A stretch of DNA of 64,000 nt from Eubacterium sp. 1001713B170207_170306_E7 (lineage in GTDB: Bacteria; Bacillota; Clostridia; Eubacteriales; Eubacteriaceae). Made by a program: the position numbers and the translations under genes. The notes beneath the pieces were generated by a model. It saw only the letters and a list, made by a program, of their open reading frames with translations. It searched no databases and was not told the DNA's origin. Shown piece after piece: positions 3,470 to 62,578 of the stretch; within the stretch, counting starts at the first letter, position 1, and every line of letters begins with the position of its first letter. Where the stretch lies: NCBI RefSeq assembly GCF_015547515.1, contig NZ_JADMVE010000003.1:62001-126000 (forward strand), in the 5' to 3' direction.

Positions 3470-4507
3470 TTATTGAAGCCCAAGCTGTTCCTTGGTAAAG
3501 CTTTTGCCATAGACCATCTGATAGAAGGCATCGACATCCTTCATAAAATCATCAGAACTATAAAGATCGCCGTGAAGGTTATTTGCTGCCCAGCAGACAC
3601 CGAGAACAGAGGAGGCCGTCGGGTAATCCCACGGTTCCAGTGCAGACGGAAAAACATAAACGGCTTTGTCCTGAACAGCCTTAATACTGCTCCAGGCCGG
3701 ATCATTCAGAATATCATCCACTTTATATTTGGCGTAGGAAGGTATCCAGATGATATCTGGATTCCAGCCAACGATCTGCTCAATGCTGACATCGGCAAAT
3801 TCGCCCTTCTTATCCAGACCGCTGACTGCGTTGCTTCCGCCGGCTTTTTCGATAATATAGGTCTGAATCATGGCATCAGGGGCGACGGTCAACTGGCTGG
3901 TACCGCCTAAGAACAGGATAGACGGCTTTTCAGAAGCCGAGCCTACCTTCTTGTTGACATCGGTGATTTTATCATTAATAAAAGAAGTGATTTCTTCGGC
4001 GCGGTTGTCTTCTCCCAATGCCTTACCGACGATTTTTAAGGAATTTGTGACGGTATCAAAGCTTTCGTCGTTAGGAAGTGCAACGATGGCCGGAACATTT
4101 ACTTCGGCGAACTGGTCAGCTTGACCGGCAAAACGTTCAGGCAGAATCGCAAGGTCTGCACCTAACTCCATAACCGTCTCCATATTGATATCCTTACTCT
4201 TGCCGATCTGTGGAAGATCATCGTATCCGTCAATAACCTGCTCATACAGGCCCCGGGCCATGTCCTTGTTGCCAAAGCCGGCGATATACTTGCCGCCGCC
4301 AATGACAACTGCGGTGTTTAAGGATGGGTTATGTGTCCCAACGACCTTGGTCGCCGGCGCAGGAAGGGTGACCTCTCGCCCGATGGCGTCTGTGACTTTG
4401 ATTTCACCAGAGGTTTTATCGGCCGATGTATCCTGCTTCGGGCTGCAGGCAGTCACGCTTAAAATTAATGTAAGGGCCAGAATCATACATAACAGTTTTT
4501 TTCTCAT
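3470..4507 (-). CDS. FecB-type ABC importer, substrate-binding lipoprotein
   Basis: 345 residues. Lipoprotein signal peptide MRKKLLCMILALTLILSVTAC, with the lipobox cysteine at about residue 21. The mature part is a class III binding protein (TroA/FecB fold) starting ITVDAIGR-like: VTDAIGREVTLPAPATKVVGT, two lobes joined by a long helix. The true start is the ATG at 4507 behind GGAGGAAAAA; the frame stays open ten codons upstream but without a ribosome site. First gene of the operon; a TATAAT at 4637-4642 may be its -10. The tail residues WDYPTASSVLGVCWAANNLH resemble those of iron-complex and MolA-type proteins. Substrate unresolved. Confidence 0.88.
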   Translation of the reverse strand: MRKKLLCMILALTLILSVTACSPKQDTSADKTSGEIKVTDAIGREVTLPAPATKVVGTHNPSLNTAVVIGGGKYIAGFGNKDMARGLYEQVIDGYDDLPQIGKSKDINMETVMELGADLAILPERFAGQADQFAEVNVPAIVALPNDESFDTVTNSLKIVGKALGEDNRAEEITSFINDKITDVNKKVGSASEKPSILFLGGTSQLTVAPDAMIQTYIIEKAGGSNAVSGLDKKGEFADVSIEQIVGWNPDIIWIPSYAKYKVDDILNDPAWSSIKAVQDKAVYVFPSALEPWDYPTASSVLGVCWAANNLHGDLYSSDDFMKDVDAFYQMVYGKSFTKEQLGLQ

Positions 4508-4698
4508 TTTTTCCTCCTTTTCAAGTACGGAAGGCACAGTCGTTTCCAGCAGTACCCTATTGTGGTAAAACCGTGAACAGATGATTTTGGGAAGCCTGTT
4601 TTTAGGACAATACCATCAGAGACTTTTCATAAATTCATTATAGCACGGTTTGATAACGTTTTAAAGGAGAAAAACAACAGGATGAATGAATAGAAAAT

Positions 4699-25433: not shown

Positions 25434-25444
25434 GTTTCCAGTTA

Positions 25445-25460
25445 GTTAGCTAGCTCTAAC
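25445..25460. promoter_or_regulatory. Operator palindrome at DUF3793-flavodoxin promoter
   Basis: GTTAGCTAGCTCTAAC: GTTAG and CTAAC arms with a 6-bp centre, placed at about +5 to +20. Its position after the -10 suits a repressor. Same layout at 27571 and 29313. Confidence 0.65.
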
Positions 25461-25516
25461 AATTACTTCGAAGTTAACATGAAACTACTGAACATGTAAA
25501 AGGGGAAATAAGACAA

Positions 25517-26103: not shown

Positions 26104-26532
26104 ATGGATAAAATTGCAGTTGTTTATTGGAGCGGTACAGGAAATACTGAGTTGATGGCGAATCGCATTGCGGACGGAATTGAAAAGGGCGGAAAAACCG
26201 CAGAGACATTTTTTGTAACAGATTTTAGTAAAGATAAAATTGCTGATTATGATCATATTGTCTTTGGATGTCCGTCTATGGGGGCAGAGGTGCTTGAAGA
26301 AGGCGACTTTGATCCGTTTTTTACTGATATTGAAGGAAGCTTGAGGGATAAAAAAGTAGCTTTATTTGGCTCTTATGGCTGGGGAGATGGCGAATGGATG
26401 AGAGATTGGGAAGACCGTGTCCGTGAGGCCGGTGCAGTGCTTTACGACGAAGGCTTGACGATTCAGGAAACGCCGGATAGTGACGGAGAGGAAGAGTGTG
26501 TTGATTTCGGGAAAGGATTTGCACAGTTTTAA
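26104..26532 (+). CDS. Flavodoxin
   Basis: 142 residues, short-chain flavodoxin. FMN phosphate loop YWSGTGNTELMA at 9-20, second loop FGCPSMGAEVLEEGDFDPFF near 60, third loop FGSYGWGDGEWM near 87. Electron carrier that replaces ferredoxin under iron limitation in many bacteria. Ribosome site AAAGGAG. Placement behind an operator-bearing promoter and beside feoA genes fits iron-responsive control. Confidence 0.95.
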   Translation: MDKIAVVYWSGTGNTELMANRIADGIEKGGKTAETFFVTDFSKDKIADYDHIVFGCPSMGAEVLEEGDFDPFFTDIEGSLRDKKVALFGSYGWGDGEWMRDWEDRVREAGAVLYDEGLTIQETPDSDGEEECVDFGKGFAQF

Positions 26533-27203: not shown

Positions 27204-27590
27204 AAAAAAAGCCTGTCAGAATAGCCTGCAGGCTGTTAAATGAACAATGAATGCTAGCATTCATTAATTCAAGAGAGGTTTGTTGGATGTGTTGGGAAAG
27301 GGGCCTGCCTGCCCTTGGCAGACCCCGAAAGAAGGAGTATCATTTCCCGAAACACTTTTGAAGAAATTAATAAGTTAGTCTTAGCAGCTTTCGAAAGTGG
27401 ATTAAACAATTCATTGGTATTTGAACGAAGTTGATTGTTAAAAGGATTTGTCTTAATAGGAATACATCTCGCATGTTACGGTGAGTGATTATCGCTGTGC
27501 TTCGATAATCTTCATCTGATTGGCTGCATTAATCAGAGAGAGTGTGTTGTTGTTCAGTTTAGCTGCTTAAGTTAAGTTAAACTAACTTAT
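27204..27590 (-). ncRNA. Candidate structured regulatory RNA with operator-controlled promoter
   Basis: A 687-bp gap between convergent/divergent genes holds a complete leftward transcription unit: promoter 27597-27625, operator 27571-27586, and terminator 27204-27234 (GCCTG/CAGGC stem and T7). No credible coding frame exists between them; the longest is 35 codons with no ribosome site. Hairpins visible on the minus strand: CTGATT/AATCAG near 27518-27538, GATTATCG/CGATAATC near 27487-27510, a GGGG/CCCC plus CTGCC/GGCAG stem near 27300-27327, and a perfect 20-bp palindrome around 27248-27267. C/U-rich single-stranded stretches (e.g. ACTCCTTCTTTC, AACCTCTC) could pair with Shine-Dalgarno sites. 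Length about 385 nt. Function inferred only. Confidence 0.6.
27571..27586. promoter_or_regulatory. Operator palindrome at the ncRNA promoter
   Basis: GTTAAGTTAAACTAAC, GTTA and TAAC arms with an 8-bp centre; the palindrome extends to AAGTTA/TAACTT at 27569-27588. It sits at about +4 to +20 of the leftward promoter. Confidence 0.6.
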
Positions 27591-27596
27591 GAAATA

Positions 27597-27625
27597 AGTA
27601 TACAACAAAGAAAAAGAGCTGTCAA
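27597..27625 (-). promoter_or_regulatory. Promoter of the candidate ncRNA
   Basis: Minus strand TTGACA (27620-27625), 17-bp spacer, TATACT (27597-27602). Close to consensus, yet no protein gene lies downstream. Confidence 0.8.
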
Positions 27626-27888: not shown

Positions 27889-28545
27889 ATGGCCGAAAAA
27901 TTAACAACTAAAGGGAAAAAGACCCGAGAGAATATAATGAATACTGCAAAAAAGCTGTTTTATGAACGCGGTTATACCAATACAGGGATCCAGGATATTG
28001 CTGAAGAGGCCGGTGTTAAGCTTGGCACAATGACTTACTATTTCAAAAAAAAGACAGATTTAGTCGGCGAGATTTACAATACATATTTTATGGGCCTTTA
28101 TAATTCTATTAGCGAGACATTAGGACAGGAAGCAACCTTATTTACAAAGTATTGTTTTACGTTGATATGCTTTTTTGACGATATTCTTAAGGATTCAAAA
28201 AATGCGCGGTTTTATTATGAGATATTGGAAAAAAACGCCAGCCGTAAAGAACGTCTTTATTTAATTAAAACATTTAATCGATCATGTCTTGATTTTTTCA
28301 ATAAATCTTATGAAAAAGATGATCTGGATGCTTATGCTATTACAAATTATGGCGCGCAAAAAGAAATATACATGGATTATTATGACCGGGAGCTTCCTTT
28401 TGACGCACATAAGGTTGTAGAGTATCTGGTACGCAATACATTTCGTATTTTAGCTATTGATAAAGAAACACTCGACAATACGATTGAGCAGGCTTTTCGC
28501 TTTTCTGAAAGTGGCCAGCTGTCAGAAATCCGTTTTCTGATTTAA
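27889..28545 (+). CDS. TetR/AcrR family transcriptional regulator
   Basis: 218 residues. HTH at about 10-60: TRENIMNTAKKLFYERGYTNTGIQDIAEEAGVKLGTMTYYFKKKTDL, a near-perfect TetR_N domain. The C-terminal ligand domain is diverse and aromatic-rich. An inverted repeat overlaps its promoter. No divergent target gene is adjacent, so the regulated genes are unknown; the HAD gene follows after 36 bp and may be cotranscribed. Confidence 0.92.
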   Translation: MAEKLTTKGKKTRENIMNTAKKLFYERGYTNTGIQDIAEEAGVKLGTMTYYFKKKTDLVGEIYNTYFMGLYNSISETLGQEATLFTKYCFTLICFFDDILKDSKNARFYYEILEKNASRKERLYLIKTFNRSCLDFFNKSYEKDDLDAYAITNYGAQKEIYMDYYDRELPFDAHKVVEYLVRNTFRILAIDKETLDNTIEQAFRFSESGQLSEIRFLI

Positions 28546-29300: not shown

Positions 29301-29312
29301 TATGTCTGTAAA

Positions 29313-29329
29313 GTTAGGTTAATGCTAAC
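29313..29329. promoter_or_regulatory. Operator palindrome at the marR promoter
   Basis: GTTAG-N7-CTAAC at about +6 to +22. Same placement as at 25445 and 27571, with a spacer one base longer. It probably mediates autorepression by the MarR protein it precedes. Confidence 0.65.
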
Positions 29330-29357
29330 TAATTAATCTTGGTAAAAGGTGGACAAA

Positions 29358-41349: not shown

Positions 41350-41372
41350 AACGAAGAAGGAGTGTGATCATT

Positions 41373-42635
41373 TTGGGTATGACAATGACTCAGAAAATAT
41401 TGGCGGCACATGCCGGTCTGGAATCCGTAAAACCGGGTGATTTGATCATGGCAGACCTGGACCTGGTGTTGGGGAACGACATTACCTCACCGGTAGCCAT
41501 CAATGTTTTTAAAAATATTAACAAGGAAACGGTTTTTGATAAGGATAAGGTCGCTCTGGTTCCAGACCATTTTGCGCCAAACAAGGATATTAAGGCTGCT
41601 GAGCAGTGCAAGCAGGTTCGCTGCTTCGCCTGTGAACAGGATGTCACCAACTACTTTGAAATCGGTGAGATGGGCGTAGAACACGCACTGCTGCCGGAAA
41701 AAGGACTGGTGGTTGCTGGCGACGTGGTGATCGGGGCAGATTCCCATACCTGTACCTATGGCGCTTTGGGCGCCTTCTCGACTGGTGTTGGCTCGACGGA
41801 TATGGCAGTTGGTATGGCGACAGGCAAAGCATGGTTTAAAGTGCCGCCTGCAATCAAGTTTAATCTGACCGGCGCTTTTAAAGAAGGCGTTTCAGGGAAA
41901 GACCTGATTCTTCACATTATCGGTATGATCGGTGTGGACGGAGCACTTTATAAATCAATGGAATTTGCGGGAGAGGGCGTATCAAATCTGACCATGGATG
42001 ACCGCTTTACCATTGCGAATATGGCCATTGAAGCCGGGGGCAAGAATGGCATTTTCCCGGTTGACGATAAAACCATCGAATACATGAAGGCCCATTCTAC
42101 CAAGGAATACAAAACCTTTGAAGCCGACGCGGATGCCGAATATGACACGGTATACGACATTAATCTGGCAGAGATCAAATCCACAGTGGCTTTCCCGCAT
42201 TTGCCGGAAAACACGAAAACCGTTGACGAAATCACCGAACCGGTTAAGATTGACCAGGTCGTTATTGGTTCCTGTACCAATGGCCGCTTTTCGGATTTTA
42301 AAAAAGCCGCGGATCTGATGCGCGGTAAGCATGTTGCCAAGGGAATCCGTGTTTTGATTATTCCGGCAACTCAGCAGATTTATCTGGATTGTATGGAAGC
42401 AGGTTATTTGAAAGACTTTATTGAAGCTGGCGCGACGGTTAGCACCCCAACCTGCGGACCATGTCTGGGCGGACATATGGGGATTCTGGCAGCGGGTGAG
42501 CGTTGTGTTTCCACAACAAACCGTAACTTTGTCGGACGTATGGGCCACGTGGATTCAGAAGTCTATCTGGCAAGCCCAGAGGTTGCAGCAGCGTCTGCCA
42601 TCTTAGGCCGTATTGCCGGACCGGAAGAATTATAA
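41373..42635 (+). CDS. leuC: 3-isopropylmalate/citramalate dehydratase, large subunit
   Basis: 420 residues from the TTG at 41373 (10 nt after AAGGAG); a GTG at 41364 is too close to that site. [4Fe-4S] ligands are in [29 protein letters not shown] and [12 protein letters not shown]. The HacA/LeuC2 short type. With LeuD isomerises citramalate (and isopropylmalate) via dehydration. Confidence 0.95.
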
Positions 42636-55754: not shown

Positions 55755-55802
55755 GAGTTATAGTCTATACTGATTTTAATTTAATAATGTTTTTAATACA
55801 TA

Positions 55803-55885
55803 AAAAGGGCAAATCTGCTGAAAGGCAGAGACGCAAAACTAAAGGGCCTAAAACCGCTAAGCGGTAACGGCAGCCAGCTGCTATG
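55803..55885 (+). promoter_or_regulatory. Cyclic di-GMP-I riboswitch (GEMM)
   Basis: The core reads GGGCAAAtc, a hairpin capped by GAAA (TGC-tGAAAG-GCA), GACGCAAA, GGGCCTAA, then CCGC/GCGG and CGGCAGCC. GGGCAAA, GACGCAAA and GGCCTAA in this order, with the GAAA tetraloop, are the class I signature. The GGCAGCC arm can pair with GGCTGC in the terminator that follows, giving a clear route for ligand-dependent switching. The sign (on or off) is not decided from sequence. Confidence 0.9.
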
Positions 55886-62350: not shown

Positions 62351-62418
62351 TAAAAAATACTAACACGGTACATGATAGCTCTTAAACCCTCTAAATCGGA
62401 GGTAATTAAGAATAAACT

Positions 62419-62554
62419 CCTATATAGGTCTTCTGGCTCGGCAATATCATTCCGTTTCCCTTCCCATCCGGCAGGACAGTGGATTGAAACGGGCATTTTG
62501 CCTTACAGCTGCGATTACAGCAAAGGATTTTCACCTTTTTCCCTTGAACATAGG
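62419..62554 (-). ncRNA. Cobalamin riboswitch aptamer, no gene downstream
   Basis: Minus strand: P1 CCTAT/ATAGG, then AAGGGAAaaaGGTGAAAATCC, TTTGCTGTAATCGCAGCTGTAAGGC, CCACTGTCCTGCCGGATGGGAAGG and AGCCAGAAGACC. This is the B12-box core (GGTGAAAATCC, GCTG, CTGTAA, GCCACTG-like and GGGAAGG) in the correct order. It is followed by a stem around 62372-62410 and then the terminator at 62318-62350. Downstream on this strand lie only 300 bp of non-coding DNA and the antisense of the surface-protein gene. Confidence 0.92.
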
Positions 62555-62578
62555 ATCATTCAATATTTAACTAAGGTT

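Follow-up and report, generated by a model that had tools for sequence, protein, structure and literature searches.

A conserved RNA gene of the Eubacterium limosum group, predicted to act as an iron-sparing small RNA

The window analysed here, a 64,000-nt stretch of Eubacterium sp. 1001713B170207_170306_E7 DNA, carries on its minus strand a predicted small-RNA gene that is divergent from a gene for a TetR-family regulator and lies a short distance from a flavodoxin gene and a feoA operon. The elements of the RNA gene and of its surroundings are listed below; G004 denotes a metagenome-assembled Eubacterium whose copy of the gene is far diverged.

27204-27590, minus strand: predicted small RNA of about 387 nt, called on its fold z-score, its presence in five of five genomes of the genus and the lack of an Rfam match
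27597-27625, minus strand: sigma-A-type promoter, TTGACA-17 nt-TATACT, with hexamers identical in five of five genomes, the divergent G004 included
27570-27587, no strand assigned: operator AGTTAGTTTAACTTAACT, an inverted repeat that fits AGTTAG-N6-CTAACT with one mismatch and spans +4 to +21
27204-27234, minus strand: intrinsic terminator, hairpin AGCCUG...CAGGCU followed by T7, present in the folds of every copy
27889-28545, plus strand: divergent TetR-family regulator (PF00440), linked to the RNA gene in five of five genomes
26104-26532, plus strand: flavodoxin (PF00258), located after DUF3793, divergent from the feoA operon and 0.7 kb from the RNA gene
25444-25461, no strand assigned: second copy of the operator motif, with one mismatch, between the feoA operon (minus strand) and DUF3793-flavodoxin (plus strand)

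The promoter (27625-27597) matches the consensus at 11 of 12 positions, and the RNA is predicted to start at A27590. The first-pass annotation had named the same start and had described a minus-strand unit with a strong promoter, an operator and a terminator, all of which could be located by sequence or by fold. The terminator was missed by a simple scanner and was seen in the folds of all copies. The operator holds the same position in the sRNA gene of the sister species, and its version in G004 is weaker (AGTTAGATGAAATTAACA). A perfect 20-bp palindrome, also claimed at first pass, was found at 27246-27265 (AATGAATGCTAGCATTCATT); in the sister species the hairpin is kept and the perfect palindrome is not.

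To describe the fold, we used the 384-nt stretch 27587-27204, for which the minimum free energy is -90.3 kcal/mol (z = -3.98). No dinucleotide shuffle was as good, so that the stable hairpins of the earlier description are beyond chance, and the folds of two orthologues gave z-scores of -4.61 and -7.00, the latter for G004. The RNA is predicted to form two domains, with several conserved stretches left largely single-stranded:

27370-27590, minus strand: 5′ domain, closed by P1 (27590-27582 with 27378-27370), with the same architecture in G004
27289-27355, minus strand: 3′ domain, an invariant stem (GUGUU..GGGA/UCCCAACAC) that encloses the Shine-Dalgarno-complementary block and hairpin P6
27328-27344, minus strand: AAUGAUACUCCUUCUUU, a 17-nt invariant block, identical in all copies, predicted unpaired, complementary to Shine-Dalgarno sequences and proposed as the main pairing site
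27435-27446, minus strand: UCCUUUUAACAA, C/U-rich and conserved, with an unpaired probability of 0.59-0.82
27355-27366, minus strand: UUUCUUCAAAAG, conserved and mostly unpaired according to alignment and fold
27273-27279, minus strand: ACCUCUC, C/U-rich and fully unpaired (0.97-1.0 in all copies)

P1 pairs the operator-derived 5′ end with the middle of the RNA. The other helices of the 5′ domain are P2 (27566-27561/27389-27384), P3 (27537-27531/27521-27515) and P4 (27510-27503/27494-27487). The arms of P2 are wholly different in the two diverged sequences (GCAGCU/AGCUGC versus GUCAUUGAAAGU/ACUUUCAAUGAC) with pairing retained; similarly, the arms of P4 differ in G004 yet pair, and the loop of this hairpin, AGCACAG, is unchanged. 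In the 3′ domain, P6 (27326-27317/27309-27300) carries a G-C to A-U double change between close species. G004 and the close copies therefore share one architecture though most stem bases have changed. With three distinct sequences to draw on, formal covariation counts for the 3′ domain are weak, and the covariation support comes from just two really distinct sequences. We speculate that stabilising the RNA, or recruiting a partner, is the probable role of the 5′ domain.

The first-pass annotation had drawn attention to unpaired C/U-rich stretches that are complementary to Shine-Dalgarno sequences. These were recovered, and few parts of the molecule are better conserved or more exposed. Specifically, the last 15 nt of AAUGAUACUCCUUCUUU have a mean unpaired probability of 0.72-0.87, against 0.48 overall, across all copies. 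Iron-sparing sRNAs have a conserved single-stranded pairing region, and in the RNA described here such a region is provided by the 17-nt invariant block, predicted to be unpaired in every copy.

Target prediction against ribosome sites, a check proposed together with the original description, returned Fe-S proteins as its top two predicted targets, a polyferredoxin and a LeuC-type dehydratase. The ranking is based on a genome-wide pattern search and on a sample of 887 genes, about one fifth of the genome. For the pattern search, the complement of AAUGAUACUCCUUCUUU was sought with up to two mismatches in all five genomes. The window genome holds three matches besides the RNA gene itself; two of them lie off ribosome sites, one inside an ftsX-like coding region and the other some 85 nt upstream of a lipoprotein gene. 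The third, AGAGAAGGAGTATCATCATT-ATG, coincides with the ribosome site of a polyferredoxin, which is 131 aa long and contains several 4Fe-4S motifs. Within the limit of two mismatches this is the sole ribosome-site match in the window genome and in G001. The site is also found in G002 and, in a version with one more change, in G003, and the complement search did not find it in G004; in G002 and G003 the start of a purine permease matches as well. The polyferredoxin ribosome site can form 14 contiguous pairs with AAUGAUACUCCUUCUUU, and the predicted duplex (-31.7 kcal/mol, z = -6.6) is the strongest among the 887 sampled genes. When decoy blocks with the same anti-Shine-Dalgarno core were used, 0 of 200 reached z = -6.6 for their own best gene; the sample, assembled with the polyferredoxin already in view, includes it on purpose, and therefore this result overstates the genome-wide significance of the match, which we roughly estimate at a few per cent before the Fe-S identity is counted.

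The second-ranked gene of the sample starts at 41373 and encodes the dehydratase, with the following predicted site:

41355-41372, plus strand: predicted target site, the ribosome site of an aconitase-family (LeuC-type) Fe-S dehydratase, with two-part pairing at -22.8 kcal/mol

This two-part site is retained in three sister genomes. A hydrogenase-like Fe-S protein ranks eighth in the sample, and in G004 three of the seven genes with GAAGGAGTA starts encode Fe-S proteins. Over all genes, Fe-S enrichment among GAAGGAGTA starts was in the right direction and not significant (4/20 versus 4/45, p = 0.19), and over all sampled genes the shift toward Fe-S proteins was slight (p = 0.036, with motif-based labels and the polyferredoxin included). 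When two other C/U-rich stretches were used for pairing searches, the top lists were not rich in Fe-S proteins.

We consider it likely, on sequence evidence, that the locus encodes a trans-acting regulatory sRNA of the iron-starvation response. An RNA of the iron regulon could also be structured for other work, such as binding a protein or sequestering another RNA, with its Shine-Dalgarno-like complementarity incidental. The size of about 387 nt, large for an antisense-type sRNA, would suit such a molecule, as would the elaborate conserved 5′ domain with its AGCACAG loop, for which simple pairing has no need. However, the most conserved parts, which are among the most exposed, are the C/U-rich Shine-Dalgarno complements, and the best genome-wide ribosome-site match is an Fe-S protein; we regard this alternative as unlikely.

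The assignment of a trans-acting sRNA to the iron response follows from its operator. The sequence AGTTAG-N6-CTAACT recurs genome-wide before AraC-feoA-feoB (L020), as paired sites before two AraC-linked transporter loci (L018/L021 and L019/L022), before an ABC/ECF locus (L023) and, with one mismatch, before AhpC-thioredoxin reductase (L033). Exact sites number 13 in the five Eubacterium genomes versus one for the reversed control. In a sister genus and in G004, sites again precede feoA/feoB and AraC-ABC/ECF genes; G004 furthermore repeats the arrangement of operator site, feoA and DUF3793, and the exact-site count in the sister genus is only slightly above that of the control. The motif is thus likely to define an iron regulon in Eubacterium and the sister genus. 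Since the operator of the RNA is an instance of the motif that precedes feo, transporter and AhpC genes, the RNA gene very probably belongs to the iron-starvation regulon. The first-pass annotation had proposed an iron-regulated RNA under a GTTA..TAAC repressor, and the operator motif proved to be common to feo and other iron-uptake genes in two genera; iron would repress the RNA through a repressor bound there.

A classical Fur box reads GATAATGATAATCATTATC. The element at the RNA promoter is AGTTAG-N6-CTAACT and is no classical Fur box, so the repressor need not be Fur; a lineage-specific Fur of altered specificity may fill this role. The genome also encodes two DtxR-family proteins (L053 and L054), neither of which could be tied to the operator, and a DtxR-type repressor is a candidate only; further candidates are the TetR and the MarR-family protein. 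The motif sites, which look like operators of an iron regulon (25444-25461, L018-L023, L060-L075), include some that lie before YbtA-like AraC regulators with ABC exporters. The minus-strand segment 18558-25225 encodes two FeoA proteins, a P-type ATPase and two ABC exporters and has an operator of the same type. Directly before a MarR-family gene (29349) lies AGTTAG-N7-CTAACT (29306-29345), in which the spacer exceeds that of the iron motif by one base; this is possibly the gene's own operator or a related site.

The linkage to tetR in all five genomes and the classical divergent layout raise the question of whether the RNA is a trans-acting sRNA run mainly by the adjacent TetR, with a signal other than iron. 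This appears improbable, as the operator has the motif that precedes feo and other iron genes, including those of a genus without a close TetR orthologue (best identity 45-48%), and as no operator site was found before tetR itself.

Even less can be said for a short coding gene, whether for a small protein read from the RNA strand or for the 24-26-aa frame MCWE...FPKHF opposite. In favour of the opposite frame (24 aa, 27287-27361, plus strand) are an SD-like GAGAGG and the presence of a 26-aa counterpart in G004. However, the differences between G000 and G001 alter its amino acids yet preserve hairpin pairs, and promoter-like sites on this strand are no more frequent than in the shuffle background. 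The RNA strand lacks any conserved SD-led frame, in agreement with the earlier statement that it holds no credible open reading frame. Coding was rejected on either strand, since the frame substitutions favour RNA pairs and the RNA-strand frames are not conserved; the opposite frame is probably a by-product of RNA conservation. Elsewhere, a repetitive 186-aa protein without a Pfam match (L130:74-631; G000 C1:861973 onward), with a repeat unit that ends in ASCKCKKNDPND, resembles a multi-core peptide precursor, and its start-site sequence is also present in three sister species.

The gene for the RNA is present in five of five available genomes of the genus. The copies of three relatives are 94-95% identical, and in G004 a DNA search finds a single block at 77% identity; in the alignment the promoter hexamers of this copy are intact, and much of the operator is retained along with several blocks. 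The flank opposite TetR differs in G004. A covariance search of related genomes, the other computational check originally suggested, confined the RNA to Eubacterium: when 35 other genomes of the family were searched with a model of the 3′ domain, no match was significant (best E 0.096), and three matches from these genomes that were inspected were judged to be chance. Similarly, a pattern scan of GTDB gave two true matches, both in Eubacterium. Its matches L221-L223 do not fit the covariance model, and L221 and L223 fall inside coding sequence; the weak DNA matches L006 and L008 resemble the gene in promoter or operator sequence only and lie in other contexts. In Rfam 15, curated iron sRNA models among its families, the RNA has no gathering-level match and nothing relevant up to E 10. 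The riboswitches that reach the gathering level in the window are of the Moco/tungsten (4498-4633), c-di-GMP-I (55798-55885) and cobalamin (62406-62568) classes. The locus appears to be a real, conserved RNA gene of the Eubacterium limosum group. That it is a non-functional relic or a set of chance hairpins, as its restriction to one genus might suggest, is scarcely credible, because promoter, operator, architecture and 17-nt block outlast a divergence that erased most stem sequence.

For an sRNA of the iron-starvation response, we propose the following model. With ample iron, a repressor loaded with the metal would occupy the operator and block transcription of the RNA. When iron is low, the RNA would be made alongside FeoA/FeoB, the AraC-linked ABC/ECF transporters and probably flavodoxin. 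AAUGAUACUCCUUCUUU would then pair with the ribosome sites of Fe-S mRNAs and block their translation, with the 131-aa polyferredoxin as the best predicted target, followed by the aconitase-family dehydratase. Overall, iron would be spared, and the balance of carriers would tip from iron-sulfur proteins to the flavin protein. Thus the RNA probably saves iron under scarcity, like unrelated RNAs elsewhere. The analysis supports the original reading, an FsrA/RyhB-like but unrelated clostridial sRNA, as largely right; expression, response to iron, repressor and repression are what we infer.

RyhB of Escherichia coli is Hfq-dependent and Fur-controlled. Its iron-sparing logic and an aconitase-family target are predicted for the Eubacterium RNA as well, which differs in having no Rfam match. 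The actinobacterial MrsI, from Mycobacterium tuberculosis, is an iron-sparing sRNA under the DtxR-family repressor IdeR; compared by description and with no evidence of homology, it offers a possible parallel for the regulator. FsrA of Bacillus subtilis is an iron-responsive sRNA with a C-rich motif that binds Shine-Dalgarno sequences (PMC9410917). Both FsrA and the RNA described here come from Firmicutes and have C-rich, Shine-Dalgarno-complementary segments, with the iron response of the latter deduced from its operator; in contrast, the Eubacterium RNA is about 387 nt long, has another operator and matches no Rfam family. IsrR, found throughout the staphylococci, is 174 nt long, has two Fur boxes and an iron-repressed promoter, and uses several single-stranded C-rich regions, pairing at ribosome sites of Fe-S enzyme mRNAs (PMC9410917). 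The Eubacterium RNA is likewise genus-wide, with single-stranded C-rich regions and predicted Fe-S targets at the ribosome site, but its length of about 387 nt and its AGTTAG-N6-CTAACT operator set it apart by description. Iron-sparing RNAs have arisen repeatedly without common ancestry (PMC9410917). We file the present RNA as a probable member of their functional class (RyhB, PrrF, FsrA, IsrR), outside every Rfam family.

The enzymes of acetogens are unusually iron-rich, and in the open-access literature we found no description of an iron-sparing RNA in these organisms. A map of transcription start sites in E. limosum, obtained by dRNA-seq of strain ATCC 8486, includes 100 intergenic starts (PMC5651825), and genes can be deleted in this strain (PMC13390469). 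The flavodoxin encoded at 26104-26532 has a computed mass of 15.81 kDa and a pI of 4.13, equal to the values published for E. limosum Fld (PMC13390469, Table 1), and its gene is almost certainly the canonical E. limosum Fld gene. A 2026 study found that, in metabolising lactate, E. limosum prefers flavodoxin to ferredoxin even when iron is ample (PMC13390469). We lean towards the view that the RNA represents an undescribed two-domain iron-sparing family of about 390 nt, which is confined to Eubacterium sensu stricto, belongs to a regulon with a non-Fur operator and shifts the gut acetogen from polyferredoxin and dehydratase to the flavodoxin whose gene lies at a distance of 0.7 kb, as an independent invention of the RyhB/FsrA type in Clostridia. 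If true, this would add one more independent origin of iron-sparing RNAs. The position of the RNA gene near the Fld gene, the operator type that it has in common with the Fld cluster and the predicted repression of the polyferredoxin would link iron sensing to the choice of electron carrier.
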